In this document: positions 2,951-30,200 of the stretch, one piece after another
Layout: each line of letters begins with the position of its first letter
How positions within the stretch are numbered: the stretch's first letter is position 1
Source: Oceanococcus sp. HetDA_MAG_MS8
GTDB taxonomy: Bacteria; Pseudomonadota; Gammaproteobacteria; Nevskiales; Oceanococcaceae
Direction: 5' to 3'
Length of the DNA: 64,000 bases
Assembly (NCBI GenBank): GCA_019192445.1
Contig: JAHCMK010000002.1
Coordinates: forward strand, 186,001 to 250,000
The notes under the pieces: model-generated
What the model saw: the letters and a program-made list of their open reading frames with translations, nothing else
Databases searched by the model: none
Told to the model about the DNA's origin: nothing
Translations under genes and position numbers: made by a program

Positions 2951-3052
2951 CCCACTGGCATTCACAAATAGATTTTCACCCCCAAAGCACACCGTGGGGC
3001 GTGTGTAGACGCGGGAAACTTGGGACGGTCCTTAGACCATCGCGCGAAATAT

Positions 3053-6000
3053 ATGGCAGCAAATACTGTTGGGAAGAACTCCCCCATAGACGCTGATCGC
3101 GTCGCATTGGTCATACTCGGCATGCACCGTAGCGGAACATCTGCGCTTACCCGGGTGCTGTCTTTGCTTGGTGCTCAACTACCGAGCCAGCTGATGCCAC
3201 CCGTCCAGGGCAACAATGACCTGGGCTTTTGGGAGTCTGAGCGAGTAAAGGAGCTCAATGATGCTCTTCTGCGCGAATGCGGCTCTTCTTGGGATGACTG
3301 GACAAGCCTGCGCCTACCTATGGCTGGTCAACAGCGCGAGGAATGGACCTCCAAAGCAGCACAAGTGTTGGTGGAAGAGTTCGGCCACGCAGACTCCATC
3401 GTACTCAAGGATCCGCGCGTAAGCCGCACTTATCCTATCTGGCGAACAGCTTTAGAACGAAGGTCTTTCGAGGTCATTTGCATTATCGCGCTGCGTCATC
3501 CGCGAGAAGTGGCCGCATCAATCCATTCCCGAGATGGCTATTCGCTAGAAGAGGGTTGCTTGCTGTGGCTAGAGCACACCCTCGCAGCAGAGCGCCACAG
3601 CCGTGATGCCACTTCAAGAAGCTTCGTAAAATACGATGATCTCCTCGCGGACTGGCGGTCGGCTATCGCTCAGATTAGTGAGTCTGCCCCTGAAGGGTTA
3701 CTGCAGGCCGACGAGGACGCAGCAAAGGCCATTGACGGTTTCCTCAAACCCTCCGCGAGACACCATCAATCCACGGATCTCGATCCTGTTCGCGCAGACA
3801 TTGCAGCCCTGGTTATGCGCACTTGGGACATTGTGAGCGAACTTGCCGTCAAGCCTTTCACGACCGATCAGCGAAATGAGCTCGACCTGATATGGACGGA
3901 GCTCAGCGCCATTAGGGAACCCGCTCAAGCATCGCGTTATCGCCAAATAGATCGGCAGGCCGCGCGACTGAATCAGCAAAACAAGACGCTGGCCCAAGAG
4001 CTTGCACTTAAACAAAGTCTGCTCACGGACAAGCGAGAGCTCCAAGAAAAGCTCGAAAACCGCATCGCCAAAGTTAGCCAGCTTGAGACTTTGGCTCAGG
4101 AGCGACAACGCGAAATTCACAAACTCGAGCAACGGCTTAATGAGGCACAGCGTACCCGCGAGACCATTGAGAGCGACTTGCGATCCTCAGCGGCAAACCT
4201 GCAAGACAAACTGACCAGCCGTATAGCGAAAGTCAGCCAACTCGAAACTCTTGCCCAACAGCGCTCACTAGAACTACAGGATTGGCGAAAGAAACACGCA
4301 GACACGCAGCACAGACTGAAGAAAGCTGAACAAGATATTCATGCGGCGTTGGCGCAGCTTGCCCACGCTGCGCAGAGAAACGAAGTCACTCCGCCTGCGT
4401 TCAATGAGCCCGACGCCCAAATAACTCAGGCAACAAACTGGCTGGTGAATCACTGGGATGACGCCTCGCAGCGACTTTGCGCCGCTCAACAGCAGCAGGA
4501 GCAATTACAACAGCGCTTGGATCACTTAGAAGAGCAGACCGAACTTTTCAAACAGCAAAGCCGCGCAACTGAAAAACGGCTTATCGATGCTGAGGCCGCG
4601 CTTCGTAAACGCGTCGCCGAATTTGAAGCGGCACTTGAAAAAAGCCGGACGCAAAACACCGAGCTGGAGAGCAAACTGGAGTCTTCACAGCAGCGCCTGA
4701 AAGTTCTAGCACAGAGCTTAGACCATAAGAATGCGGAAGCCCGTTTGCTGCACCGAGCGCGGCGGCATACCGCCGGCGCAGTGAGTCTGGCAAAGCTTCA
4801 TCAGTCTGTGCGCTCTTCCAAGCCTCAATCCACCGCGCATAAGGTCACTATGCTGGCCCGCCTGGGCAGACGCTTGTTGCAACGGTCAGCGTTTGGGCTG
4901 GAACTCACACAAGCCCTGCGCAAATCTCTACTTGCTCAGGCGAAAGTGATCGTGCGCGCCTCTGCTTTCGATGGCGATTGGTATGGTCAGTATCATGATC
5001 TGCCGCAAAGCCTGTCCGAAGACGCAGCCCTGCTGCACTGGCTGTTAATCGGCTGGCGTGAGGGTCGAGACCCCCATCCTGTATTTGCGACAAGCTGGTA
5101 CCTGAAGAACAACCCAGACGTGAGGGAGTCAGAGCAGAACCCCCTGGTTCACTACCTTACATTTGGGATTGAAGAAGGCCGTCGTGCGAGCCCGCTCTTT
5201 GATGATGCGTACTATGCAGAAAAACACTCGGACATCCGGTCTGCAGGCCTCAACCCCTGGACGCACTATGTGGCGCATGGCATGCATGAGGAACGCGAGC
5301 CGCATGGCCTGATTAATCCGCGCTGGTACCGAGACCATTACCGTATTGATGAGGACACCAATGCGCTTAAACACTATTTGCTTGTTGGTAGTGACTTAGG
5401 GTTTTCCCCGAGCCCTTTCTTTGATTCGCTGTGGTACCTCAAACGATACCCTGACGTGGCGAAGGCAGAGATTCATCCTCTTTGGCACTTTCTTTGCCAT
5501 GGGCAGCTCGAAGGACGCAAAACATCCGCTCGTGATCGCTCCCTCGCGCGGGCCAACCAAGGGCGCGAAGCCACATCACGGCCACACATTCCAGACCCCG
5601 CGCCAAACCTAGCCGCAAACTACTCATATACGCCCGGCAACCTTGAACTCGACCCCAGTAAGCAGACGGTGCTCGTGTGTGCGCACGCGGCGAACTCGGA
5701 GCTCTATGGCGGGGAACGCAGCTTCTTAGAGATCCTGCATTTACTGCGGGACACTGCTTACCAAGCTTTGGTGCTCTTGCCAAAACCCAACCCCGAGTAC
5801 ATCCAGCTTTTGCTCGACCACTGTGTGGGCGTTGCGACGGTTCCCTACCGCTACAACCGGCAAGGCACTGAAGCCAACAAATCATCCGTTGCGCAAATTA
5901 TGGCGTTAATGGTCGAGCATAGAGTTCGACTTGTGCATGTCAACACCATTGTTGTTCGCGAACCTCTGTTAGCAGCGGCACGATTAGGCTTGCCACGCCT

Positions 6001-9000
6001 CACGCATGTGCGGGAGTCGTTGCGGAACGATCGTTGGATGACGGAGATGCTGGCAAGTAGCAGCGATGCGGCACTTGATGAAGTGCAGAGTCACACTGAT
6101 GCGATTATTGCCAACTCTGAGGTTACCGCCAAGGAATTCTTCAAAACTGACTCCACCTTCACAGTCCCCAACACCTTTGACATGGCAGCCTTGGACCTGA
6201 GCAATGACTGTGACAGTGGAGCAATTTATGTGGGGATGCTGAGCAGTAACCTGCCCAAAAAAGGCATCGAGGATTTCGCTCAGCTGGCAAAGTCCTGCAG
6301 CCAACTCAACCCCAAGATGCGGTTTCGCTTAATTGGCCCACTGAATGAGCACACCCAGAAGCTAGTCCAGCGACAAAAAGCAGGTGAACTGAGCCAGAAC
6401 CTCGAGTTCTGCGGTTACATCGCCAACCCCATCGACGCTTTGAAGCTGGTTAACGTGGTCGTGAATTTCTCTCACTTCGCCGAATCATTCGGCCGCACGG
6501 TTGTTGAAGCCCAAGCAGCCCGTAGACCGGTCATTGTGTATGACCTTGGAGCGCCTAAAACACTGATTGATAACGGGCGCACAGGGTATGCGCTGCCTGT
6601 GGGCCATTGGCACGACGCTATTGCCATACTCCAAAGGTGGGAAGCGGACCGCGACTCCATGGTTGCAGCTGGCGAAAGCGCACGCGATTACGTCGTGCCA
6701 CGATTTGGTCGAGAGCATGGGCAAGCCGCTTTGCAACAAGCCTACGACACCATGCTGCAGCGGCTGCCGCCCCGCCAAGATGCACGCGGTAGAACCGACA
6801 CCTACGCTGTTTCCCCCAGATATTCAGCCCAGCATTTCAAGCCGCGCGCAGTCGAACGGCTGGCCTACTTCTGCTGGCACTTCCCCGTGCCATCGGAAAC
6901 CTTTGTGCTCAATGAGCTGCGTGAGCTCGTACAGCGCGGTGTAGACGTGTTGGTCTACTGCCGACAAATTCCGCATAAAGACTTTGAGCCTGACTTCCCC
7001 ATCTCTTGGGAACGCGTTGCCAACGCCGAAGAATTGGCCGACAAACTCATCGAAACCGGTCGCCAGCATGTACATGCGCACTTCGTGTATCCCACGGTGA
7101 CCGATATGGTGTGGCCCGCCTGCCAGAAGGCCGGACTACCATTTACCTTCATTGCTCACGCTCAAGACATTTTTAAGTACGAGAATGACAAACGCAATCG
7201 CATCGCGGAGATTGCAGCAGACCCGCTGTGTTTGAAGATTTGCGTGCTGGGCGACTTCCACCATGCGTACCTCACCCGCAGAGGAGTCCCACCGAACAAA
7301 CTTCTTATCAACCCCAACGCCGTCGATTTTTCGCCCTTTGCTTTCAAGGACCGCAGCCAGCGAGCCGTGACGCGCTCGGTTGTCGCAGTCCATCGCTTCA
7401 CTGCAAAGAAAGGCTTAGACATTCTCATCCAAGCAGCGCCTTTGCTCTTGGACGATGACATAGCGATTCACCTGTACGGATACGGAGAACAAGAAGAGTT
7501 GCTCAAGGCCGCTGCAGCAGATATTGGATGTCACAACATTCATTTTCGCGGGGCGCTACGAGGTGCCGATGCCGTCGCCGACGCCATACAGTCCCATGAT
7601 GCTTTCATAGCCCCTTCAGTCCGAACTGACACCGGGGATATGGACGGAATCCCCACATCGGTCATCGAAGCAATGGCGCTCGGCGTGCCGGTTGTCACCA
7701 CCAACATCGCCAGTATTCCCTCGGTGGCCATCGATGGCGTCACAGCCTATGTCGCTGAATCAGGAGACCCGCAGAGCCTTGCCCAAGCCATTCGACGAGC
7801 AGTCAATGCAGGCCCAGCGGAGCGCAAAGCACTCGCCGCAGCTGCGCGCGCAAAAGTGGAAAAACGCCATAATGTGTCTCGCACAGTCGATGTGCTGCAG
7901 CGCGTGTGGGAGGACCAGCCCATCGATCTTGTGATTGTGAGTTGGAATAATCTTGAAGAGCTGCGCGAGGTTGTATCCCGCATATTTCGCTACACAAAAA
8001 CTCCGTTTCACCTCAGCATCTGTGATAACGCCAGCCAACCCGATGTGCTGCAGTGGCTGAGTGCTCTACAGCTGAACAATGACAACGTCAGCATCATATT
8101 TCGCGACGAGAACAGCTACGTGGGCCCCGGAACCAACGCCGCGATGAGCGTCGGCCAAGCGCAGGCTGTGGTGTACTTCTGCGGACGGGAAGGTTTTTGT
8201 CTCGCCGAAGGCTGGGAAACTGAAGTGTTGGAGCAGTTCCAGAGCAAACCGAAGGCAGGCCTTATTGGAAGCCTAGGCTATAGCCCAACTTACCTGCATG
8301 GCAAAGATATGGCGTCCGGCGTTCCACTCTTTGCAAAGTTTCGGAACCCGGAATTTGCTGAACAGAACCCTGAGCGTGAGTTTTTCCATGTGCAAGGCGG
8401 CTTATTCGCCATGCGACGCGACATGGTCAATGAGATCGGCGGGTTTAGCGAAGATGTCCCACATAGCTATACCGATGTTGAGTACAGCTACTATGTGGAA
8501 AGCTGTGGTTGGGAGCTTGGCTCCGTGCCGGGTTTGCTGGCCCTGTTCAATAAAACGCGGCCCGACTTTTGGTCCAGGGTTGATGAAACCGTCAAGGTTA
8601 TCCACCCGCCGACGTTAAAAGACTTGCCCCTGTTGCAGAAAATCGCAGACAACGCCACGAAATTCTGCAATGTCTGCAATTGGGCTGGTCCGGAGTTTGA
8701 CCATAACCAGGGCTGCCCGGCATGTGGATCCACACCCGGACATCGCAGCTTGTATCGCTATCTTGCGGAAAGTACCTTGAGCTATCGACGTCTCCCAGCA
8801 CTGTGGGTTGGAGACAATCGCTGCTTAGAGCCATACTGGACTCCATCCTTCCAAGGTCAACAACTGTCCCTGGAAGACGCGCGCAAGCAGATCGCTAGTA
8901 AGGGTTTGGATACAGCGAGTGAGCGCTTGGAGTTCATTGCCATAGAGTCGAGCCTACTCTCGCCCAAAAACACGCGGCAGAAAGTTATCGATGAACTCAT

Positions 9001-9190
9001 CCGAACGCTGAAACCGTCGGGACAGCTTTGTATCCTCTCGGGCGATTCCAACTCTGGGAACTCCTCCAACCTCAAAGCTCTACTCGACCACCCTCGCCTG
9101 GAGGCTCTGGAGCCCATTTGTTACCGCAGCGCGGTGGTCCAGTTCTCCACCGCGGACGTGGCTTTGCTTAGAAAACGCCAACCCAATTAA
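3053..9190 (+). CDS. Giant sulfotransferase / coiled-coil / GT4-GT4-GT2 / zinc-ribbon fusion protein
   Basis: A 2,045-residue multidomain protein (numbering from the ATG at 3053; a TTG at 3020 would add 11). Domains in order: sulfotransferase, residues ~17-260, with P-loop GMHRSGTS; a Gln/Glu/Leu-rich coiled coil, ~295-565; four to five repeats of ~50 residues with the pattern YLKNNPDV...NPLxHY...GxxEGRxPSPLFD, ~630-825; a GT4 domain, ~870-1240, with SFGRTVVEAQAARRPVI; a second GT4, ~1266-1620, with GIPTSVIEAMALGVPVV; a GT2-like domain, ~1621-1850, starting DLVIVSWNNL and carrying GGFSEDVPHSYTDVEYSY; then a CxxC...CxxC zinc ribbon (~1871-1900) and a C-terminal region like those of class I methyltransferases, but without a clear glycine-rich SAM loop. 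It probably builds and sulfates a polysaccharide in one polypeptide. The next sulfotransferase gene starts 8 bases after the stop. Confidence 0.9.
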   Translation: MAANTVGKNSPIDADRVALVILGMHRSGTSALTRVLSLLGAQLPSQLMPPVQGNNDLGFWESERVKELNDALLRECGSSWDDWTSLRLPMAGQQREEWTSKAAQVLVEEFGHADSIVLKDPRVSRTYPIWRTALERRSFEVICIIALRHPREVAASIHSRDGYSLEEGCLLWLEHTLAAERHSRDATSRSFVKYDDLLADWRSAIAQISESAPEGLLQADEDAAKAIDGFLKPSARHHQSTDLDPVRADIAALVMRTWDIVSELAVKPFTTDQRNELDLIWTELSAIREPAQASRYRQIDRQAARLNQQNKTLAQELALKQSLLTDKRELQEKLENRIAKVSQLETLAQERQREIHKLEQRLNEAQRTRETIESDLRSSAANLQDKLTSRIAKVSQLETLAQQRSLELQDWRKKHADTQHRLKKAEQDIHAALAQLAHAAQRNEVTPPAFNEPDAQITQATNWLVNHWDDASQRLCAAQQQQEQLQQRLDHLEEQTELFKQQSRATEKRLIDAEAALRKRVAEFEAALEKSRTQNTELESKLESSQQRLKVLAQSLDHKNAEARLLHRARRHTAGAVSLAKLHQSVRSSKPQSTAHKVTMLARLGRRLLQRSAFGLELTQALRKSLLAQAKVIVRASAFDGDWYGQYHDLPQSLSEDAALLHWLLIGWREGRDPHPVFATSWYLKNNPDVRESEQNPLVHYLTFGIEEGRRASPLFDDAYYAEKHSDIRSAGLNPWTHYVAHGMHEEREPHGLINPRWYRDHYRIDEDTNALKHYLLVGSDLGFSPSPFFDSLWYLKRYPDVAKAEIHPLWHFLCHGQLEGRKTSARDRSLARANQGREATSRPHIPDPAPNLAANYSYTPGNLELDPSKQTVLVCAHAANSELYGGERSFLEILHLLRDTAYQALVLLPKPNPEYIQLLLDHCVGVATVPYRYNRQGTEANKSSVAQIMALMVEHRVRLVHVNTIVVREPLLAAARLGLPRLTHVRESLRNDRWMTEMLASSSDAALDEVQSHTDAIIANSEVTAKEFFKTDSTFTVPNTFDMAALDLSNDCDSGAIYVGMLSSNLPKKGIEDFAQLAKSCSQLNPKMRFRLIGPLNEHTQKLVQRQKAGELSQNLEFCGYIANPIDALKLVNVVVNFSHFAESFGRTVVEAQAARRPVIVYDLGAPKTLIDNGRTGYALPVGHWHDAIAILQRWEADRDSMVAAGESARDYVVPRFGREHGQAALQQAYDTMLQRLPPRQDARGRTDTYAVSPRYSAQHFKPRAVERLAYFCWHFPVPSETFVLNELRELVQRGVDVLVYCRQIPHKDFEPDFPISWERVANAEELADKLIETGRQHVHAHFVYPTVTDMVWPACQKAGLPFTFIAHAQDIFKYENDKRNRIAEIAADPLCLKICVLGDFHHAYLTRRGVPPNKLLINPNAVDFSPFAFKDRSQRAVTRSVVAVHRFTAKKGLDILIQAAPLLLDDDIAIHLYGYGEQEELLKAAAADIGCHNIHFRGALRGADAVADAIQSHDAFIAPSVRTDTGDMDGIPTSVIEAMALGVPVVTTNIASIPSVAIDGVTAYVAESGDPQSLAQAIRRAVNAGPAERKALAAAARAKVEKRHNVSRTVDVLQRVWEDQPIDLVIVSWNNLEELREVVSRIFRYTKTPFHLSICDNASQPDVLQWLSALQLNNDNVSIIFRDENSYVGPGTNAAMSVGQAQAVVYFCGREGFCLAEGWETEVLEQFQSKPKAGLIGSLGYSPTYLHGKDMASGVPLFAKFRNPEFAEQNPEREFFHVQGGLFAMRRDMVNEIGGFSEDVPHSYTDVEYSYYVESCGWELGSVPGLLALFNKTRPDFWSRVDETVKVIHPPTLKDLPLLQKIADNATKFCNVCNWAGPEFDHNQGCPACGSTPGHRSLYRYLAESTLSYRRLPALWVGDNRCLEPYWTPSFQGQQLSLEDARKQIASKGLDTASERLEFIAIESSLLSPKNTRQKVIDELIRTLKPSGQLCILSGDSNSGNSSNLKALLDHPRLEALEPICYRSAVVQFSTADVALLRKRQPN
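4945..5530 (+). repeat. Protein-level tandem repeats (YLxxNPDV...HYLxxGxxEGR)
   Basis: Inside the giant fusion gene, successive units of about 50 codons encode the pattern W/Y-Y...NPDV...NPLxHYL..G..EGR.PSPLFD. Recognisable units start near WYGQYH, WYLKNNPDV, YYAEKHSD, WYRDHYRI and WYLKRYPDV. Units are divergent at DNA level, so this is an old protein repeat and not a recent DNA expansion. Such repeats occur between domains of large bacterial polysaccharide glycosyltransferases; their role is unknown to me and may be to bind glycan or act as a spacer. Confidence 0.7.
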
Positions 9191-9198
9191 CAACCGTA

Positions 9199-9996
9199 AT
9201 GCCCCCCTCACACAACCTTCCTGAACCCAATTTGGTCATCCTCGGAGCCCAAAAGTCCGGCACGACCAGTCTTTACCACTACCTGAAGGTCCACCCCGAT
9301 ATCTTCATGGCAAGCCCGGTTAAGGAACCAGGCTACTACTTAGGCGACGACAGAGCGAAAATCTTCTGGGAACGAATGGGGCAGCCTATAGAGTCACGCG
9401 AACAGCTGCTCAGAGAGCGGATGCTCCAGGGTTATCAGGGAGAGCGTTGGTTCGGCGATGCCTCTACGTATTACACCATTGGAATGCGGTCTCAAAAATT
9501 CAACATCCCAAAGCGGATGGCGTCAGCGCACGCGGATATGAAGCTGATTTACATCATGCGCGACCCGGTGGAGCGTGTCCTCTCAAACTACCGTCACCTC
9601 CAAACTCGAGGCACCTATGAGGGAAGTTTTGAGGCGTTCCTGCAAACCCATGAGGGCAAGGCTGCCGTCCGCACAAGCTGCTACCACTTTCAGCTTACGC
9701 AGTATTTAAAGTATTTCCCGAAAGAGCAGTTTTTAGTTCTGCAGTTCGAAGCGCTCACTAAAGAGCCTCAGGCTGAGATGCAACGCATTTGTCATTTTCT
9801 AGACATATGCGCTCCCAACTCCGCTGCCACTTACAAGGCACATAATGAGTCAGCTGAATACACTCATAAGACTGGGTTGATTTCTGAGGAAGATGAGATA
9901 AGGGTCCGCCGCATGCTCGGAAGTGACATGCGCCAACTTTTTGCCACCTGGCAATTACGCAGAGACCTCTGGAGAAAATCGCTCGCCACTAGGTGA
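9199..9996 (+). CDS. Sulfotransferase domain protein
   Basis: A 265-residue protein of the heparan-sulfate-type sulfotransferase family, which moves sulfate from PAPS to a sugar hydroxyl or amine. The 5'-phosphosulfate loop is QKSGTT (near residue 18) after strand LVILGA. The next helix and HPDIFM..VKEPGYY match the family pattern, and LIYIMRDPVERVLSNYRH is the 3'-phosphate-binding motif. The length is normal and the ATG start puts the P-loop at the expected place. It follows the giant fusion gene by 8 bases on the same strand and is almost certainly in its operon. The substrate is presumably the same glycan; the sequence does not say which position is sulfated. Confidence 0.88.
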   Translation: MPPSHNLPEPNLVILGAQKSGTTSLYHYLKVHPDIFMASPVKEPGYYLGDDRAKIFWERMGQPIESREQLLRERMLQGYQGERWFGDASTYYTIGMRSQKFNIPKRMASAHADMKLIYIMRDPVERVLSNYRHLQTRGTYEGSFEAFLQTHEGKAAVRTSCYHFQLTQYLKYFPKEQFLVLQFEALTKEPQAEMQRICHFLDICAPNSAATYKAHNESAEYTHKTGLISEEDEIRVRRMLGSDMRQLFATWQLRRDLWRKSLATR

Positions 9997-10328: not shown

Positions 10329-11348
10329 TCAGGACACCCGGTAATTGGCAATTGCTGCAATGAGACGGAGCTGGTGGATGTCTATCTCGGTTAAAGAGCT
10401 GCCTACTTTATCTTCTGATACTAGGTCGTTCGGTCCAACAACCGATGCTTTTTCTTCATCGGGTAGATAACGATTCACAATGGCAATTTTTTCGGAGAAC
10501 TGAGACTCGAGGTATTTGACATCCTTCATTTGAATGGACGGCTCACCCCCAATGCTCTCCGACGCGATGAGCGCATGCCCAAGTGTTGTCGCGACTTTTT
10601 CGTCCCTAACATACCCATTTAAGGTACGCATTATTTCTGTTTCGGCATGATTAAGGGATCTGTTAACTAATTGCTCTTCCGTGCCTTGGTCTTTTGTGAC
10701 CTGATCTATGCGCAAGAACTCCGAGCAGAAGAAACCAAACATACTCGTTCGATGGTAGTCATAGTTCCTTATTGAGAAAGACTCTTTAGGTAGCGAGGAC
10801 TCCAGCTTTTCCGTAATTGCAATGCAGTTATGCTTGTAACGTTTGAGCCATGTGGAAAACTCTCGTTTTTCAAGATGTCTCTTTACTCGCTGTCTGTATG
10901 CGGAATAGGCGCGCCCGGCTACAGATCTTGTAAAGTATACGACATGAAGTTTGCGCCCTTCCTTTTTTAGCTTATCGTGTAGCGCAAACATTCTATTTGG
11001 GGAGAAATGTTGCAGTTTCTCTGAAGACAAAACTACATCTTCAAACGGCTTGGAAGCTTGATCAAGTAGTAGGTCGAGCGCCTTCGAGCTCTCTCTAGAT
11101 TTCTCATCATGACAAAGATAATCAGAGAGCCAGGCTCCGTTGCCTGAGGTCACCTGACCAGACAGCGCCCGATTCAACTCGGGACCAGATTTATAGAGAA
11201 CACCGTGATGTTTTAAAAGTTCGGAATTTTGGGCAAGCTTACTTTGCAGGAAAGAAGACCCGGTTTTACCTCCGCCGATGTGGAGGATTAATGTTCCTAC
11301 CCCTTCTGATGAATTTTTTCGTCTGGTGAGACCTAAGGTGTGCAACAA
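10329..11348 (-). CDS. Sulfotransferase-like P-loop protein in an A+T-rich patch
   Basis: A 339-residue protein with a sulfotransferase-type P-loop near the N terminus (ILHIGGGKTGSSFLQ, about residues 21-35). This is the same arrangement as the HIGxxKTGTTSIQ proteins of polysaccharide clusters. A later strand-plus-motif VVYFTRSVAGRAYSAYRQ fits the 3'-phosphate-binding site, with the usual RDP replaced by RSV. The best start is TTG at 11348, with GAGGGA about 7 bases upstream. Codon use is A/T-ending and Lys/Ser-rich, clearly unlike neighbouring genes and suggesting transfer from elsewhere. A 71-codon frame ends 10 bases upstream on the same strand. The substrate is unknown; activity is likely but not assured. 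Confidence 0.72.
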   Translation of the reverse strand: MLHTLGLTRRKNSSEGVGTLILHIGGGKTGSSFLQSKLAQNSELLKHHGVLYKSGPELNRALSGQVTSGNGAWLSDYLCHDEKSRESSKALDLLLDQASKPFEDVVLSSEKLQHFSPNRMFALHDKLKKEGRKLHVVYFTRSVAGRAYSAYRQRVKRHLEKREFSTWLKRYKHNCIAITEKLESSLPKESFSIRNYDYHRTSMFGFFCSEFLRIDQVTKDQGTEEQLVNRSLNHAETEIMRTLNGYVRDEKVATTLGHALIASESIGGEPSIQMKDVKYLESQFSEKIAIVNRYLPDEEKASVVGPNDLVSEDKVGSSLTEIDIHQLRLIAAIANYRVS

Positions 11349-11613: not shown

Positions 11614-13064
11614 GTGCGTATGACTGTTTCTGGAGACGTGGCATTGGTTGAGCATTTATTGAAGCCGTTGGCTACTGTCGCTTTCGTTGCGGCGGCGGGC
11701 TGTGGTGGTAACACCGAGCCTACAAACATTACTCAGGTTGACGACAGCATGTCGCAGCTTCCTCTGGCTCGTAACGTAGTGCTATTGACTGCAGACGATT
11801 ATGGCCCATTCATGGGTGCCTATGGTGAGACACGGATCGCGACACCCCAACTAGACCTGCTTTCCTCTGAATCGTTACGGTTCCCAGTTGCACACGTCAC
11901 CCAGTCGTCGTGTAGCTCCTCTCGCAGCAGTCTAATGACAGGGCTTTTCCCCTCTATCAATGGTCAGATCGGCTTGGCGAATCATGGATTTAGCGTATCC
12001 CCGGAGTACCACACGCGATTACTCCCGAACCTGTTACACGATGCCGGACTGCGCACCGGAATTATTGGCAAGCTGCATGTTTCACCATCAGAGGCGTTTA
12101 AGTTTGATTTCAAACAAGGTCTATCGCAGCCTCAGAGAGTGCGTGACGTTGCAGAGGCAGCTCGCCGCTTTTGGCCACATATGGTGACGAGCCGTTCTTC
12201 TTGATGGTGAGCTTCTTTGATCCGCATGCGATGAGGAATCCGCAAACCGGACGCATGGGGTTCCCCGACCGAGTCGACGATTTGCCAGAAGATCTGTTGC
12301 AACCGAGCAAGGATACTCTCTTTGCAGAACAGGGCATTGATACCCCCGTCCAGAGGACGAGAACTGCCGGATATCTCAATGCGGTCAAGAGGCTTGACTA
12401 CGGCGTTGGGTTGCTTATCGACGCGCTTGACGAATATGGTATTGAGTCTGAAACACTACTAATTTTCGTTGGAGACCACGGGCCGCCTTTTGCAAGAGGC
12501 AAAACAACCAACTATGAGTTTGGCCTTCGGGTGCCACTACTGCTTCGCCTAACTGGGCAGACCTATGGTCAGGTCGCCGCGAGTATGGTTTCCACGGTAG
12601 ACATATACCCGACAATCTTACAGGCACTCGGTATCGATATTCCGTCTCCGATACATGGTGTCTCTTTGCTGCCTGTTATAAGCAACCCTGACATTCAGAT
12701 TCACGACTACCTGTATTCTGAGTGGGAGTACCATGGCCGCAGCCCACACTTCCCGCGTCGTGCAATTCGAGACCAACAGTACAAGTTGATCCACAATCTC
12801 AAGTTTGATCAAGCAGCCCCATCGGTTGCGATCGACGGCGATCGTGTTTACTTTGACGCAGTCCAAGAACCGTGGGAGACGACCCTAGCAGGTCAAGCGT
12901 TTGCGCGCTTCGCTGAACCGCCAGAGTTTGAATTATTTGACCTACAGTCAGATCCATTGGAGCAGGTCGACCTGTCGAGCAGCGAGGCTCATGTACAAGT
13001 TCTGAATCGACTGAAAAAGTCGCTGGCGGCAGAAATTGAGAAAATTCACGACCCTAAGATATGA
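11614..13064 (+). pseudogene. Sulfamidase-like sulfatase lipoprotein, split by a one-base frameshift
   Basis: Two overlapping frames together encode one sulfatase of the N-sulfoglucosamine sulfohydrolase (SGSH) type. The first (to 12204) has a lipoprotein signal ending VAAAGC, the metal-binding TADDYG, the formylglycine site SSCSSSR and GIIGKLHVSPSEAFKFDF. The second resumes as ATYGDEPFFLMVSFFDPH and carries GDHGPPFARG and the C-terminal part to 13064. The join is at the TTTT run 12169-12172: adding one T restores a continuous RFLATYGDE reading. The active-site motif is C-S-S-S-R, not the usual C-x-P-x-R, so the proline important for formylglycine formation is missing. The start is GTG 11614 or ATG 11620. 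Context (four sulfotransferase genes upstream) suggests it once trimmed sulfate from the same glycan. A sequencing error in the T run is possible. Confidence 0.85.
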
Positions 13065-13229: not shown

Positions 13230-13496
13230 ATGCGCAAGTCCCGATTCAGTGACAGTCAGATCATCAGCATCCTCAAGCACGCGGAGGCAGGAACGCCCGT
13301 TCCAGAGCTGTGCCGTGAGCACGGGATGAGTACAGCGACCCTCTACAAGTGGCGCAGCAAGTTCGGCGGTATGGACGCGTCGATGATGAAGCGCATGAAG
13401 GAGCTAGAGGATGAGAACCGCCGGCTGAAGAAGATGTATGCCGAGGAGCGGCTCAAGTCCGAGCTCCGCAAGGAGGCCCTTGAGGGAAAGTGGTAA
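13230..13496 (+). CDS. IS3-family transposase OrfA
   Basis: An 88-residue helix-turn-helix protein that recognises the ends of the element. It begins [15 protein letters not shown] and has a Trp-containing helix ([14 protein letters not shown]) followed by a leucine-zipper-like [16 protein letters not shown] segment, the standard OrfA layout. The ATG at 13230 has AGGAG 8 bases upstream and is preferred over the in-frame ATG at 13212. The end overlaps orfB by 7 bases; in this family a -1 ribosomal frameshift in the overlap (here near GGGAAAG) makes the OrfAB transposase. Confidence 0.9.
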
Positions 13497-14317
13497 GGCC
13501 GTCACGCCGCCGCGAGATGGCCCGATCCGTCGTTTCCCGTAGCAAGGCGAGCATCCGCGTTGCCTGCGAAGCCTTTTCGGTGAGCCAGACCTGCTACCGC
13601 TACGAGGCCAAGCTGTCCGATGAGAACGCAGAGATCGCGGATTGGCTCATTCGCCTGACGCACAACCAGCGTAACTGGGGCTTCGGTCTGTGCTTCTTGT
13701 ATCTGCGCAACGTGAAGGGGTTTCGCTGGAACCACAAGCGCGTGTACCGCATTTATCGAGAACTGGAGCTCAATCTGCGGATCAAGCCGCGTAAGCGGAT
13801 TGTCCGTGAGAAGCCGGAGCCCTTATCGGTGCCGACGGCGATCAACCAGGTTTGGAGCATCGACTTCATGCATGACAGTCTGGAAGACGGCCGTGCGTAC
13901 AGGCTGTTCAATGTCATCGATGACTTCAACCGCGAGGGGCTAGGAATCGAAGTCGACTTCTCACTGCCCGCAGCGCGGGTTATCAGGGCCTTGGAGAACA
14001 TCATTGAGTGGCGGGGTAAGCCTTGCGAGATTCGAGCAGATAATGGACCCGAGCTCGCTGGTCATGCCTTGCGTGACTGGGCTGAACAGCAGGGCATCAC
14101 GCTCAGCCACACCCAGCCCGGCAAACCCCAACAGAATGCATATATCGAACACTACAACCGAACCGTCCGCTATGACTGTCTCGGTCAATATCTGTTCTCA
14201 AATCTCACAGAGGTCCAGGAGCACTCAACACGTTGGCTCTGGTCCTACAATCACCAAAGACCCACTATGGCTCTGGGCGGCATCACACTCATCATGCGTC
14301 TCGGCCAGGCCGCTTGA
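13490..14317 (+). CDS. IS3-family transposase OrfB (DDE integrase core)
   Basis: The catalytic part of the transposase, 275 residues with GTG start, or made as a fusion with OrfA by frameshifting. The rve integrase core is visible: the first Asp in SIDFMHDSL, the second in the RADNGPE motif, and the Glu in [15 protein letters not shown], followed by the usual [14 protein letters not shown] ending. No internal stop is seen, so the element may be active. It is in frame -1 relative to OrfA. Confidence 0.92.
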
Positions 14318-14329
14318 GTTCTACACGAA

Positions 14330-14356
14330 AACCCAGCTACAAACGGGGGGATTACC
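14330..14356 (-). repeat. Right terminal inverted repeat of the IS3-family element
   Basis: Read on the minus strand it starts GGTAATCCCCCC, then GTTT, GTAGC and GGGT, matching the left end over its outer 12 bases exactly and further in with mismatches. Confidence 0.8.
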
Positions 14357-14367
14357 ACCTGACCGGG

Positions 14368-14880
14368 ATGGATAACGCAGACGGCGAGGAAGCCGGCTCA
14401 GAAACCGATCCGCATGCCGTACAGAATGGCGTGGCTCGCCTGCAGGATCGCCAACACAACCTGGAAGAACTCCAGCAGCGCATGACGGTGTCGGGGCGCA
14501 AGCAGGTCTGCGCCACCGAAAAATCGGCGCACATGATGCGCTCAGGGCGAGGAGGCATGGTGCTGGGCTTCCACGTACAAAGCGCCGTGGATGTTGAGAC
14601 CGGCATGATCGTTCATCACGATGTCATCACAGACGGAGCGGACAACCTGTGGCTACAGCCCATGGTGGAGCAGGTCCAGTCCGATAGTGCCGATGCGGGC
14701 TACTACTACTCCAACGGAGAGCAGCTGGCGTTTGTGAGGAGCAGGGCATCTCCACTGCGGTCCTACCTAATCCCGCCAAAAAATACTCCTTACGCCTGTG
14801 GTCGGGCTTATTTGACGTGTCCGTAAAGAAAGAGGCGAACCCCGTCCCGAAGTTCGTTGCGAACATGGATTCGAAAACGG
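14368..14880 (+). pseudogene. IS1182-family transposase remnant
   Basis: Directly right of the IS3 element a frame without a start encodes a piece of an IS1182-type DDE transposase. TEKSAHMMRSGRGGMVLGFHVQSAVD matches the family's conserved block around the first catalytic Asp, followed by DADAGYYY-SNGEQL, where relatives have D.GY.sGE. After the GCGTTTGTGAGG stretch near 14730 the match continues in another frame (CEEQGISTAVLPNPAKK), so there is a one-base frameshift. It then fades out, and both N- and C-terminal parts are missing. It is a dead fragment. Confidence 0.75.
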
Positions 14881-15067: not shown

Positions 15068-15952
15068 TTAGTCCGAATTTACAGCACTATTATTATCCTG
15101 CAAATGACTACGTGCTTCCTCCAGCCAGTGTGGCTGCGGAATGCGAATGACTTTAGAGCCGGCGAGCACGCTGAAAGAGGGCCGGGCGGCAGGCGTGGGA
15201 TAGCCGCTGGTGGGGATAGGTTGAATGCTGGCTACTTTTTCGCGACCTTGGTCGAGGAGTGCCGCGCGAATCACGCTTGCGAAGTCATACCACGACGCCA
15301 CGCCGGCGTCAGTGTAGTGCAGAGTCTCGCCATGTCCTAACCCTTCGCTAAGCAAATAAAAAACGGCTCGAGCGATACTGCGGGTACTGGTTGGTGTACC
15401 CACTTGGTCGCTCACCACACTCAGCTCTTTACGAGCTTGCAATAGGCGCACCATCGTCAGCAAGAAGTTGTGGCCGACAGGTCCATACACCCAAGCGGTA
15501 CGCAATACGGTCGCCAAATTGCCTGCGGCAGTACGGACTCGCTCTTCGCCTTCGCACTTGGCGCTCCCGTAGACGCTTAAGGGATTAGTCGGCGCATCTG
15601 GAGGATATGGCGTGGAGCGCTGTCCATCGAAAACGAAATCGGTGGAGATTTGAATAATCCTTGCTCCACACTCTACTGCGGCCTTGGCCATGTTCTCCGC
15701 CCCGAGGGCGTTGATAGCGTGCGCCAACCCAGGCTCTGATTCGGCTCTGTCAACGGCGGTGTAGGCCGCCGCATTGATGATAGCGGTGGGGACGAAGTCC
15801 TTCACCACCGCGACGATTTGGGCAGCGTCAGTAATATCGAGTTGTTGTCGGTTAAACCCATGTACTACCCAACCCGATGGAGCATGCTGTAGTAGAGCTT
15901 GCCCGAGCTGACCATCCGACCCAGTGACGAGCACTCTTTGGGTATCCGTCAT
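15068..15952 (-). CDS. rmlD: dTDP-4-dehydrorhamnose reductase
   Basis: Last step of dTDP-L-rhamnose synthesis: NAD(P)H-dependent reduction of dTDP-6-deoxy-L-lyxo-4-hexulose. A Rossmann short-chain dehydrogenase of 294 residues with the nucleotide loop GSDGQLGQ near residue 11, INAAAYTAVDRAE, STDFVFDG and the catalytic YGSAK. The length is normal. The start overlaps the rmlC stop by 4 bases, and it is the last gene of rmlBACD, transcribed on the minus strand. The order B-A-C-D differs from the common B-D-A-C arrangement of enterobacteria. Confidence 0.95.
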   Translation of the reverse strand: MTDTQRVLVTGSDGQLGQALLQHAPSGWVVHGFNRQQLDITDAAQIVAVVKDFVPTAIINAAAYTAVDRAESEPGLAHAINALGAENMAKAAVECGARIIQISTDFVFDGQRSTPYPPDAPTNPLSVYGSAKCEGEERVRTAAGNLATVLRTAWVYGPVGHNFLLTMVRLLQARKELSVVSDQVGTPTSTRSIARAVFYLLSEGLGHGETLHYTDAGVASWYDFASVIRAALLDQGREKVASIQPIPTSGYPTPAARPSFSVLAGSKVIRIPQPHWLEEARSHLQDNNSAVNSD

Positions 15953-16515
15953 GACTCCCAGCTTCCCGCTGTAAAAATGTCCGCCTGTTCCAGGCTTGGC
16001 GCCTCAGTATCTTTGGGCGACAGAGATGGGACGCCACTCATCGGCCAGTCTATGCCCAAACTCGGGTCATTCCAGCGGATGCTGCGCTCACCGGTTTTGT
16101 CATACGGTGCCGTAACCTTGTACAGCACCTCAGCTGACTCACTAGTGACGACGAAACCATGGGCAAAGCCAACCGGCACCCACAGCTGATGCTTGTTCTG
16201 GGCCGACAGGGTAGCGCCTACCCATTGTCCGAAGGTGGGAGAGCCTCTTCGAATGTCTACGGCCACATCAAAGATCTCGCCGCTGAGCACCCGCACCAAT
16301 TTATCCTGCGGATGGGCACCAATTTGGTAGTGCAACCCGCGCAGAACGCCGTGTGCAGATAAAGACTGGTTGTCTTGCAGGAATGACTTGCTGCAACCGG
16401 TGGCTTCGGCAAAGCGCTGCGCATTGAAGGCCTCCATGAACCAGCCACGGTCATCGCCAAACACCTGCGGCTCAATTAACAAAACCTCTGGGATGGCTAA
16501 TGAAGTCACTTTCAT
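15949..16515 (-). CDS. rmlC: dTDP-4-dehydrorhamnose 3,5-epimerase
   Basis: Converts dTDP-4-keto-6-deoxyglucose to the 4-keto-rhamnose form. A cupin-fold protein of 188 residues, full length, with [13 protein letters not shown], the catalytic-His segment LRGLHYQIG, the [18 protein letters not shown] barrel strands and the conserved VPVGFAHGF. It overlaps rmlA (upstream) and rmlD (downstream) by 4 bases each, indicating translational coupling. Confidence 0.95.
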
Positions 16516-17390
16516 GCTCCACCCTCCTCTTCTGCAATACGCAGTAGGTATTCGCCGTAGCCGCTCTTCACGAGGGGACGAGCGAGGTCACGCAAAGCCG
16601 CCGCCGAGATAAAACCGCAACGAAAAGCCACTTCCTCGGGGCTGGCGATCTTCAAGCCTTGGCGCTTCTCTAGGGTGTGTATAAACATGCCCGCCTCTAA
16701 CAATGAATCGTGGGTACCGGTGTCCAGCCAGGCGGTCCCCCGCCCCATGGTTTCCACCCGCAATTGCCCCGCATCCAAATAGCGTTTGTTGAGGTCGGTG
16801 ATTTCCAGCTCACCACGCGCGGAGGGCTTGACGGCCTTGGCCTGCTCCACCACCTGCTGGTCGTAAAAATACAGCCCGGTGACAGCATAACGGGACTTGG
16901 GCTTTATCGGCTTTTCTTCGATACCGAGTACGGTTCCGGTTTTGTCGAATTCCACCACGCCGTAGCGCTCAGGATCGTGCACTGCGTAAGCAAACACGGT
17001 GGCGCCTTGCTCTTGAGCTGCAGCCCGCTCTAGGGAGTCGGCTAGGTCATGGCCGAAGAACAGGTTATCGCCCAGAATCAGAGCGCAGCTATCGCCATCA
17101 ATAAAGTCTTCGCCTATCAAGAAGGCTTGCGCCAAACCGTCTGGACTCGGCTGCACTGCATAACGTAGCGACAGCCCCCACTGAGCGCCATCGCCTAATA
17201 AGGCTTCAAAGCGCGGTGTGTCCAGCGGCGTGGAGATGATCAAAATTTCGCGTATGCCCGCTAGCATCAGTGTGCATAGCGGGTAATAAATCATAGGTTT
17301 GTCATATACGGGTAGCAGCTGCTTGGAAACCGCCTGCGTTGCTGGATACAAGCGGGTGCCGGAACCACCAGCGAGAATGATGCCCTTCAT
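16512..17390 (-). CDS. rmlA: Glucose-1-phosphate thymidylyltransferase
   Basis: Makes dTDP-glucose from dTTP and glucose-1-phosphate, the entry step of the pathway and normally feedback-inhibited by dTDP-rhamnose. 292 residues, full length. The nucleotidyltransferase signature [11 protein letters not shown] is at residue ~8, with [15 protein letters not shown] after it, [10 protein letters not shown] (metal-binding Asp) near residue 110, and EEKPIKPKS. It overlaps rmlB and rmlC by 4 bases each. Confidence 0.96.
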
Positions 17391-18457
17391 GCCGATGCCC
17401 CGGAGGCTGTCAAGCCCATGCGCTTATCGGCCGCACCTCTATGCTGAACACCGCGGCACCACTCCAAATGGTCCAAGTACCATTGCACCGTGCGCCGCAG
17501 GCCTGTTTCGAAGGTTTCCTGCGGCGTCCAGCCCAAATCGCGCTGAATTTTTCCGGCATCAATAGCGTAGCGAGCATCGTGACCCGGACGGTCAGTTACA
17601 AAGCGGATTTGTTCAGCATAGGGTGTCGCTGCGGGCCGCAGCGCATCCAGTTGGGCGCAAATTTCGCGCACCACCTCAATGTTGGTCCATTCGTTATGAC
17701 CACCAATGTTGTAGCTTTCTCCCAGCGCACCCTGCTCTAACACGCGGAGCAAGGCCCGAGCGTGATCATCCACATGCAGCCAATCACGCACATTCTCCCC
17801 GCTACCGTAGACCGGGATGTCTTCTCCAGCCAAGGCTTTCAAGATGACCACGGGAATGAGCTTCTCTGGAAATTGCCAAGGCCCATAATTGTTGGAGCAA
17901 TTGGTCATCACTACTGGCAGCCCATAGGTGTGGTGCCAGGCGCGGACCAAGTGATCGGAGCCCGCCTTCGAAGCCGAGTAGGGTGAATTCGGAGCGTAAG
18001 GCGTATCTTCACGGAACAGCCCCTCGGCTCCCAAGGTGCCATAAACCTCGTCGGTGCTGATGTGATGAAAGCGAAAGGCACGACGATGATCTTCCGGCAT
18101 GCTCTGCCAGTAGGCCCGCGTTGCTTCCAGTAGGGTGTACGTTCCCAGCACATTGGTATGAATGAACGCTGCGGGCCCATCAATGGAGCGGTCCACATGC
18201 GACTCAGCCGCTAAGTGCATGATGGCATCGGGCCGGTACCTGGCCAATATTTGCTGCACAGCTTGCCCGTCGCAAATGTCCGCCTGCACAAAGCAGTACC
18301 GCTCTCCGGCTTGGGTCGCCAAAGGTTCTACGGCCTCGGGGCAAGCAGCGTAGGTCAGCTTATCGACGTTAATGACGGCATGCTCAGAGTGAGCCAGCAA
18401 TTCACGGATGACGGCTGAGCCAATAAATCCTGCGCCGCCGGTAATAAGAATGTTCAT
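17387..18457 (-). CDS. rmlB: dTDP-glucose 4,6-dehydratase
   Basis: NAD-dependent dehydration of dTDP-glucose to dTDP-4-keto-6-deoxyglucose. 356 residues, an extended short-chain dehydrogenase with GGAGFIGS at residue ~7, the catalytic triad region HISTDEVYG and [15 protein letters not shown], and NCSNNYGP. First gene of the rml operon, 30 bases downstream of the rhamnosyltransferase-like gene, so transcription may start upstream of that gene. Confidence 0.96.
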
Positions 18458-27295: not shown

Positions 27296-30200
27296 TCATG
27301 CTGATTGTCGCTCCATGTCAATCTGCGTAGAAAGCGCCAGAGCGATCACGCCCTGGGGAATATCGATGCTTTGCCATTGCAGCTGCTGGCCCTGCGGTCC
27401 GCGCACCTGCTGGGCGGCTGCTTGGGTTTGCACCTGCCATTGATCCGGCCGTCCCTGCAGGCCGCTGCCCACAGCTTTGGCAGCCGCTTCCTTGGCCGCC
27501 CACACCCTGGCTACAAAGTCTGCGCGCTGGTCGGGTTGTAGCCCCAACCATTGCTCACGCTCTGCAGCGCCTAAGGCCGTACGCGCAATGCTGTCGGTGT
27601 CCAAATTCTGCGTACACACCAGGTCTACCCCCACCGCCAAACTCGCGTCTGCTGCAACAGCAACGGCTTGACCTTGGTGATGGGCGATAGAGATCGTGAC
27701 AGGACGCGCTAAATCTCCGGCCTCAACCTGAGGCCGGCCGTCCGCGGCATAGCCAAGTGTGAGGTCCGCTAGGGCCAGGGTTTGACCCCAGCGGGAGGCC
27801 AAATCCCGAATCGCTTCCTTGGCCGCAAGCCGTCCAAGTAACCAATCCTGCTGGCGCATACCCTCCAGGCTGTAGAACTGCACGAGCTCAGAGGAACTCA
27901 AGCTGAGATGCGCCGCTACCCTGAGCCAAATACCACCGGCCTGGGCCCAAAAATCATCTGGCTGTGCTGGCAGCCAGCGTAGCGCCAAGGGGGCTTGGCC
28001 CGTGTCCAAGCCCTGGCTTAAAGCCTGGCTTTGCGGGGCGCTGCGCCAACGGGTGAAGCGAGGGTCAACCGCAAATTTGCGATCACTCCAGCCGCGAATG
28101 TTGGCCCATAGCCCGCCGCGACCATCGCCGACCTGCCAGTGGGCAGCGAAGGTGGTTGCAGAGGTCGCGTCGAAGCGGCCGGTAGACGGCAGCTGCTCGC
28201 CCGCCGACGGCGGTGGCGCATAGAGATCAATCTGGTCGATGGCATAGGGGAAGCAATTGAAGCCCGCGCGCTCCTTCTCACTCAGCCAATATCCGGCCAG
28301 CTGGCCTACGGCATCCAGCAAGATGGGGTCGGTTTCCCAAGCATGTACTTGCCCCGTCTGCACGCAATCCGCCAAGGGCTTAACCACCAGATCAGCCGCA
28401 ATCGCGTGTTCATCCCAGCCGCTTAGGCGCGCCACCCCCTGCAGTCTGGGGCCATGAAACATTCCCCGGCTGTAGAGTTGATCAGGCGGGTTGTCGCGGA
28501 TGGGCTGATTCGCCAATACGGGCTCCATGGCCACAGCCGCGGGATAGGCGGGGGCAAACACACAGACCACGCTGAAAGCCGCGCCCTTACCGCCATCATC
28601 GAGTTCGCATTGAACCCGCACTTGCTGCGCGCCCTGCTCTAGGCGCTGCGCCCGCCCGGTCAAACTTCTAGGGCCGTGATCCAGCGCCAACCAGCGTTGT
28701 CCGCGCGCCTTAGCGAAGCCCACCAAGGGCCAACCCTGTGGAGCCAGACTGCGGGCCAACTGGGCAGCCATTTCCAAACTGAAGGTAAAGGGAACGACGG
28801 CTAAGGCCGTACGCTCAGCTTCCTGCAGTGATGGCGCTGCGCCCAGGGTGTGATCCTGCAAATAAAGCTGCTGAAGGGGGTCGAGCAAAAATCGGCCCTG
28901 GGCCTGCTCAGCATCAACCTCGGGCGCCGCAGCCAAGAGCGGGCCATGGCTCGTCGCTGGATGACTGACCGCCGAAGCAGTGCCCACGCCTCCCCGCTCC
29001 ATGGCCGCCAATACCCGAGATTGCTGGGCCAAAAACTCCTGCATCAGGCTGAAGTGTTGCTGTAGCACCGGCTGTTGGCCGGGCTCGGGCGCCAGGGGCA
29101 GGGCTGCTGCTGGCGATACGGCCGGGCGTTCTGCCGTCGGCGTCACTGACCTTGGCTGCTGCGCTGGGGCAACATTGAGGCCGTTTGTGACTAGAGCCGG
29201 ATCAGGGCTCGACACTGGAGCCGAGGCGACAACAGACTCTTGCTCCGTGGAGCGAGGCTGCCAATCAGGCACCAGATCTTCGGGCCAGTGCAGCATGGGC
29301 AGCACCGTCGCCAATGCTGGGTCGGGCTTGGGCTCCTCCACGCTATTCGCTTCGGCGGCACGCAGAACTGGCGCCAAATCCACGGCATGCCCGGCCACCC
29401 AAATCTGACCTAAAGCTGCCAGCAGGCCCTGCTGATCGTCTTGGCGCCGACTATTGGTTGCAATGCTAATCGCCTGGCCGTCATGGGCCTTGAGGCTGTC
29501 CTGTACAAAGGCGCTGAGATTGGCGCTGGGCCCCACCTCTACAAAGGTACTCACGCCTGCGTCTAAAAGGGTTTGCACGGCCTGCCGAAAGCGCACCGGC
29601 TGCGACCACTGAGCACAGGCCAAATCACGCATGGTGTCGGCATCGCTGGGAAACCAATCCAGGCTGGCGCAGGACAACACCGGCACCTGCGTAGGCTGCA
29701 TGTGGACCTGGGCAAAGGCCTGACGAAATGCCTGCGTCACCGGCGCGAAGTGTTCGGTGTGATAGGCCCGGTCGAAAGGCAAACTGGCCACAATGCCCCC
29801 AGCTGTGACCAAGGCTTTTTCCACCGCTGCCGCATGCTCTTCAGCCACAAAAATCACAGCTTGGTTGGGGCAATTGTCCATGGCCACGCAGGCCACTTGC
29901 GCGAAAGGCTCCAATGCTGCCTCACGGGCTGCTGCGTCTAAGGCGCCTACGGTTAGCAAGACTCCCGTGGCGATCTGCCCCTGAGAGAGCAGCTTTTGGT
30001 ACACCGTATTCAGGGTGCGGGTCAGGCCGCGCAAGCCTTCGGCATCAATCTCTCCAAAAGCGCCAGCAGCCACCAAGGCCGCATGTTCACCTGTGGAATG
30101 ACCAATGATGGCATCGGGCTGAACCTGGCACTGACGTAACAAAGCCAGCAGCCCAGCACTGGCCGCAAAAATGGACTCCGACGCCATGTCCATTTCGTAC

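Follow-up and report, generated by a model that had tools for sequence, protein, structure and literature searches.

A glycosyltransferase fusion with a rod-mounted sulfotransferase domain, candidate sulfating polymerase of an Oceanococcus surface polysaccharide locus

Domain architecture of the fused gene

We analysed a 64,000-nucleotide stretch of the Oceanococcus sp. HetDA_MAG_MS8 genome (GenBank assembly GCA_019192445.1, contig JAHCMK010000002.1, positions 186,001 to 250,000; hereafter the window), with the focus on one very long gene that joins a sulfotransferase (ST) to several glycosyltransferase (GT) domains. This fused gene is a single intact frame at 3053-9190 on the forward strand, 2,045 codons from its ATG and free of internal stops; read from a TTG, the same frame (3020-9190, +) gives 2,056 amino acids (aa). 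Residues are numbered from the ATG unless the 2,056-aa frame is named, and all domain coordinates in this section are on the forward strand. The encoded order is ST, a coiled coil of ~320 residues, a helical solenoid of five repeats, GT4, GT4, GT2, zinc ribbon and a methyltransferase-like tail. The original prediction for this gene, a single polypeptide holding a sulfotransferase and three GT domains, is borne out by the intact frame, by Pfam and by predicted folds. Structure prediction returned an ST, a long helix and repeats for residues 12-860 of the 2,056-aa frame (AlphaFold with 14 homologues), and a GT-A domain, a zinc ribbon and a Rossmann-like tail for residues 1630-2056.

The ST domain (3098-3844) occupies residues 16-264 of the predicted structure. 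Its Pfam Sulfotransfer_3 match, at residues 30-221, reaches 19.1 bits against a Pfam cut-off of 27, and other family members likewise score under the cut-off (17.8-25.6 bits). Searching the PDB by sequence gave zero matches for the ST domain and, for the ST-coil-repeat alignment, coiled-coil proteins only; because these searches were uninformative, fold comparison was used, and the top three PDB fold matches of the domain are all sulfotransferases (olefin synthase ST, curacin ST and SULT4A1; 4gox, 4gbm and 1zd1). Fold comparison against a viral library returned only weak sulfotransferase matches. Across 14 ST domains from two classes, the 5'-phosphosulfate-binding (5'-PSB) loop LGMHRSGTSA and the K, P and R of LKDPR are invariant, as are the arginine and serine of a stretch resembling the 3'-phosphate-binding (3'-PB) motif, RxPxEVAxS (14/14); the glutamate of GFWES is likewise invariant. 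Cofactor motifs and fold, set against the unreached Pfam cut-off, suggest an ST domain of the type dependent on 3'-phosphoadenosine 5'-phosphosulfate (PAPS), predicted to transfer sulfate from that donor. The genome encodes an adenosine 5'-phosphosulfate (APS) kinase, and PAPS can therefore be made.

The coiled-coil rod (3863-4816) is modelled as one long helix with a single break, giving two helices at residues 271-441 and 453-588. Taking a rise of 0.15 nm per residue, its length is estimated at ~40-48 nm. Five helical repeats of ~40 residues follow (4832-5566), carrying the pattern xxWYxxxxPDVxxxxxxPLxHYxxxGxxEGR; this domain is modelled confidently (residues 594-838) and matches no Pfam family under E 0.1. 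Coil content was scored with a simple in-house heptad scan, not a published coiled-coil predictor, and the partial ST protein L013 was omitted. The scan found ~120-440 coil-like residues in every ST protein scored, whether fused (7/7) or of the split form described below (6/6). GT cores that lack an ST (L012, L016, L020 and L022) had 0-62 such residues, scattered over short, separate stretches. When the coil region of the fused protein was shuffled, coverage averaged 107, against 283 for the native sequence. The coil thus travels with the ST domain, and an ST-associated spacer or ruler is a better reading than the generic scaffold first proposed.

Pfam recognises two GT4 domains (Glycos_transf_1, two stretches, 1.9e-49), both GT-B, at 5657-6769 (motif ESFGRTVxEA) and 6842-7915 (motif GDMDGIPTxxxEA), followed by a GT2 domain (GT-A) at 7916-8659 (Glycos_transf_2, residues 1637-1806, 7.5e-8). 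In alignments both GT4 motifs are kept in homologues across Proteobacteria and Bacteroidota. No DXD metal-binding motif was found in the GT2 domain; YxCxxEG stands in its place in 17/17 sequences, with TDVE farther along, and because of this invariance we read YxCxxEG as a maintained alternative active site or a specialised role, not decay. The model of the C-terminal 427 residues (1630-2056 of the 2,056-aa frame) has a mean pLDDT (predicted local distance difference test score) of 87.7, and its best fold matches include GT-A polymerases, for example heparosan and chondroitin synthases; an hmmsearch of the GT2-tail alignment against the PDB gave weak matches only.

Behind the GT2 domain lies a zinc ribbon (8666-8725, C-x2-C ... 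C-x2-C), whose cysteines are invariant in 17 sequences, and then the Rossmann-like tail (8735-9175), seen in homologue alignment and the structure model. Of the zinc-ribbon/methyltransferase-like end originally proposed, the zinc ribbon and the Rossmann-like fold stand, whereas a working methyltransferase was rejected: the glycine-rich S-adenosylmethionine (SAM) loop expected after the first strand is absent in the homologues inspected, and the fused protein has no Pfam methyltransferase match. As this loop is missing and the tail sequence varies among homologues, the tail is probably structural. A fused relative from the window's genus (L052:9205-13083) instead ends in a domain that Pfam identifies as Methyltransf_23.

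A tail without a SAM motif, a GT2 domain without DXD and a weak Pfam score for the ST would all fit a protein in which the ST, the tail or both are catalytically dead scaffolds and some GT domains alone work. Against this stand the ST cofactor motifs, unchanged over 14 sequences and two classes, the GT2 YxCxxEG, equally fixed, and the GT motifs, whose degeneration the original prediction had allowed for and which are conserved, not decayed, from Proteobacteria to Bacteroidota. We regard the dead-scaffold explanation as very improbable.

Fused and split relatives

A search for proteins with the same domain order found full-length homologues: an Oceanococcus metagenome-assembled genome (MAG) encodes the full order in 2,045 aa, another genome of the genus in 2,038 aa, and Sinimarinibacterium flocculans in 1,944 aa. 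Identity to full-order homologues is about 34-61% per domain (40-61% for the ST and GT domains), and on this basis we take the fused arrangement to be old. It had also been conceded that separate genes might have been joined by an assembly error. Nothing was found in favour of this, though relatives in Rhodobacterales do have two genes, and because three independent assemblies of the window's order share the full order, an artificial join is ruled out and its probability is negligible.

In those Rhodobacterales (Sulfitobacter, Paracoccus, Thalassococcus and Roseovarius), equivalent parts are encoded by two genes, one for a GT core (~1,300 aa) and one for a protein made of ST and coiled coil (~460-820 aa), spaced a few hundred to ~2,300 bases apart with 0-2 genes between. 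GT cores lacking an ST occur in Sphingobium, Roseomonas and one Bacteroidota genome. In three further genomes of the window's order the ST-coil-repeat front is fused to other GTs. L052 has GT2 and GT4 domains and ends in a methyltransferase that Pfam recognises, L053 combines GT2 and GT4 domains with an end resembling GT92, and the GT domains of L054 are all GT2. This suggests a constant modifier front with interchangeable polymerases behind it. In a tree of GT cores the split forms make up a single group (support 97/100), and the fused forms come together in 18% of bootstrap trees. The distribution of the family is patchy: at E <= 1e-30 the GT2-tail was detected in 1/369 sampled genomes of the class, namely the window's own, and in 3/198 genomes of Sulfitobacter's order, and a close ST in 10/85 genomes of the window's own order. 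No full-length relative was found in phage records.

The split loci show several further features. Four split ST-coil proteins (L012, L014, L018 and L077) share a C-terminal SxSWRxTxPLR with basic residues behind it; this end may be a helix that binds the membrane or recruits the polymerase. The Sulfitobacter split locus has nearby a second GT4+GT2 repeat protein of ~1,160 aa with no zinc tail (L012:14601-18083, L017:1107-4580). In Brucella tritici (L026:7974-12115) the GT core is in two frames, broken inside the second GT4 domain and lying beside transposase-like genes. Plasmid pDSHI02 of Dinoroseobacter shibae (L074) carries a GT core with genes for an ST and a pyruvyltransferase after it; a nearby ST-coil gene is not annotated.

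Genomic neighbourhood and export genes

Directly after the fused gene comes a classical sulfotransferase (9199-9996, +; Pfam, and PDB matches to 3rnl and heparan 3-O-sulfotransferases), and such an ST also adjoins the GT protein at L010, L048, L025 and the Bacteroidota locus L022. On the other side, the divergent neighbours are a WecA-like polyprenyl-phosphate sugar-1-phosphate transferase, the predicted initiator (1808-2992, -; PF00953 and NCBIfam), a third sulfotransferase (985-1899, -; PF00685) and a 646-aa GT2-containing protein (1-982, -) whose C-terminal part lies beyond the window (to C2:185045, in contig coordinates). KpsM-, KpsT-, KpsE- and KpsD-like genes stand farther left than the window (C2:180633-184984, -). 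Polysaccharide assembly was the right pathway to propose. The suggestion that the protein makes a repeat unit by itself is not supported, since it has beside it an initiator, additional GTs, two other sulfotransferases and export genes of the Kps type.

Linkage to the exporter recurs. A KpsM-like gene, with KpsE beside it, lies <10 kb from the fused gene in 5/6 assessable genomes (4.1 kb in G000, 9.1 in G001, 6.0 in G002, 5.8 in G044 and 6.4 in G048); G003 was left out of this count, its fused gene and KpsM-like gene both being near contig ends. In genomes of 3.5-4.4 Mb, a gene of this kind would fall within 10 kb of the fused gene, to one side or the other, with a chance of ~0.6%. The exporter was assigned from KpsM-, KpsE-, export-protein and ATP-binding cassette (ABC) ATPase matches, all under NCBIfam equivalog cut-offs. 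Elsewhere, KpsE/T genes are found near L016 and an ABC-2 permease/KpsT near L022, the Sphingobium and Saprospirales GT cores adjoin ABC exporters, and plasmid-borne ST-coil genes lie near ABC exporter genes in Cereibacter sphaeroides (WP_011836244.1, plasmid pA of strain 2.4.1), Ruegeria and Novosphingobium. The KpsT-like protein, at <=278 aa, consists of the ABC domain only. No KpsC/KpsS-like gene is linked, the single Capsule_synth match being on another contig, and several genomes (G000, G044, G048 and G002) have a linked WecA-like gene; together this suggests an undecaprenyl-linked product rather than a capsule primed with 3-deoxy-D-manno-oct-2-ulosonic acid (Kdo).

Wzx-, Wzz- and Wza-type genes, with other GT genes, were identified by eye at C2:160-180 kb, and the fused protein might serve this neighbouring pathway, its three GTs and ST making one lipid-borne sulfated repeat unit that is flipped and then polymerised outside. 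We consider this improbable, as relatives retain the kps linkage, the divergent neighbours here are kps and WecA genes, and the Sphingobium and Saprospirales cores sit beside ABC exporters.

Other genes of the window were noted in passing. Downstream of the classical sulfotransferase, a 339-aa protein (10329-11348) with a P-loop-like start (LHIGGGKTGSSFLQ) has no Pfam or NCBIfam match and is possibly another divergent sulfotransferase. A sulfatase-like gene near the sulfotransferases (11614-13064) is in two overlapping frames (196 and 297 aa), a probable frameshift. By eye, IS3-like transposase remnants (13490-14826) separate the ST/sulfatase genes from rml (dTDP-rhamnose) genes (15068-18457), and the genes at 27296-40983, which encode very large polyketide/fatty-acid synthases with acyl-carrier repeats in tandem and a phosphopantetheinyl transferase-like C-terminal region, resemble a polyunsaturated fatty acid (Pfa) synthase.

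Proposed chain-end sulfation and comparison with known systems

Starting from the domains, folds, conserved motifs, fusion and split history, transporter linkage and APS kinase gene observed directly, we tentatively favour the explanation that the fused gene encodes a polymerase with a built-in, rod-mounted sulfotransferase, acting in an ABC-transporter-dependent surface polysaccharide pathway and working like the enzymes WbbB, O7 ORF6 and WbdD; polymerase activity, a sulfate at the chain end and a ruler function are what we infer. The WecA-like enzyme would prime undecaprenyl phosphate, adapter glycosyltransferases would act next, and the two GT4 domains and the GT2 domain would lengthen the lipid-linked chain in the cytoplasm. 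The ST would sit ~40-48 nm off, at the end of the coiled-coil rod, and would move sulfate from PAPS onto the chain once the growing end, at a minimum length, reaches it. This sulfate would most likely cap the chain and thereby limit its length, the KpsM/T/E/D-like proteins would export the polymer, and the neighbouring classical sulfotransferase would sulfate another position.

We propose action at the chain end after a minimum length because the geometry, the fused and split alternatives and the transporter context match polymerase-terminator systems. That sulfate itself is the chain-ending group is a possibility that we hold with some doubt; an ST carried by a coiled-coil ruler and joined to a polymerase of three GTs would then both stop and measure a chain exported by a Kps-type transporter without a cap-reading module. 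Several points weigh against the proposed explanation. Homologues differ widely in coil length; in G040 the fused gene lies 155 kb from the kps genes; the KpsT-like ATPase has no C-terminal carbohydrate-binding module; the Wzx/Wzy-type cluster is <30 kb away, and the product could belong to that route; the Pfam score of the ST in the fused protein is sub-threshold; and no capped product is known.

The missing module also bears on an in-chain role, in which the fused ST would decorate sugars within each repeat unit during growth, the coil would be a flexible tether or oligomerisation device, and the transporter would set length as in Klebsiella pneumoniae O2a. An ATPase without a cap-reading module is what O1/O2 systems have (PMC11231755), and Cobetia marina, a marine gammaproteobacterium, has a KpsETMD-exported capsule with in-chain sulfate (PMC11766843). 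However, the classical sulfotransferase right behind the gene, with counterparts at four other loci, is a simpler candidate for in-chain sulfation, and a 300-residue rod would hold the fused ST away from the polymerase. We judge in-chain sulfation by the fused domain somewhat unlikely.

Returning to the rod-mounted polymerase, its succession of modifier, coiled coil and polymerase GTs is the known polymerase-terminator format (PMC11231755), so the new type of polysaccharide assembly originally suggested is not supported. We do not class the fused protein as a member of that group, because the ATPase module for cap reading that defines it is lacking and we only infer the terminal sulfate; the lack of this module weakens the case for membership and leaves untouched the proposal that the protein works like terminator systems. 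Full-text literature searches found no ST among described chain terminators, with partial coverage that does not establish absence from the literature.

If a rod-mounted ST ends chains, bacteria would have a sulfate-based means of setting length in one polypeptide, sulfate would become a further type of cap beside the known ones (methyl, methylphosphate and Kdo), and there would be a terminator without module-gated export. Because the family occurs fused and split, with exchangeable polymerase parts and rods that differ greatly in length, the ruler idea is directly testable in laboratory organisms such as C. sphaeroides 2.4.1. Such an enzyme would help to predict which sulfated polymers marine bacteria make and would provide a modular tool for producing size-defined sulfated glycans.

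Kelly et al. (PMC11231755) describe polymerase-terminator systems that hold the terminating enzyme at the far tip of a coiled-coil ruler and have the polymerase GTs C-terminal or in a partner protein. K. pneumoniae O12 WbbB (PMC11231755) shares with the fused protein an N-terminal chain-ending enzyme, a coiled-coil ruler, C-terminal polymerase GTs and an ABC-transporter-dependent pathway, the chain-ending, ruler and polymerase roles being predicted for the fused protein. WbbB ends chains with a beta-Kdo transferase, and its three GT modules founded families GT99, GT102 and GT103, whereas the fused protein has an ST, GT4, GT4 and GT2. In all terminated O-antigens described, a C-terminal carbohydrate-binding module of the transporter ATPase reads the cap (PMC11231755); this holds for the O12 transporter, while the KpsT here is without the module.

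K. pneumoniae O7 ORF6 (PMC11231755) likewise has an N-terminal modifier, a coiled coil and C-terminal GT modules, and its relatives, as here, include some fused to GTs and some ending after the coil. It differs in its methyltransferase-kinase modifier, immunoglobulin (Ig)-like module and two GT2 modules, where the fused protein has an ST, helical repeats and GT4-GT4-GT2. The Rhodobacterales split form parallels Escherichia coli O9a/O8 WbdD/WbdA, a coiled-coil modifier with a separate multi-GT polymerase, and the short basic, amphipathic-looking end of the split ST-coil proteins could act like the membrane-proximal end of WbdD; the WbdD/WbdA cap is methyl or methylphosphate, added by other modifying-enzyme families, and sulfate is predicted here.

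Coil-bearing modifiers occur in Kps systems too, since putative methyltransferases with a coiled coil have been noted in the group 3 capsule clusters of E. coli (PMC13171606); a coil modifier in a Kps-type cluster is the shared feature, theirs being a methyltransferase whose role is not described there. The C. marina capsule locus (PMC11766843) has in common with ours a marine gammaproteobacterial host, a KpsETMD exporter and PAPS-dependent sulfation, the last predicted here. Its ST and GT genes are separate and kpsSC lies near the exporter, whereas the window locus joins ST and GTs in one polypeptide and has no linked KpsC/S-like gene.

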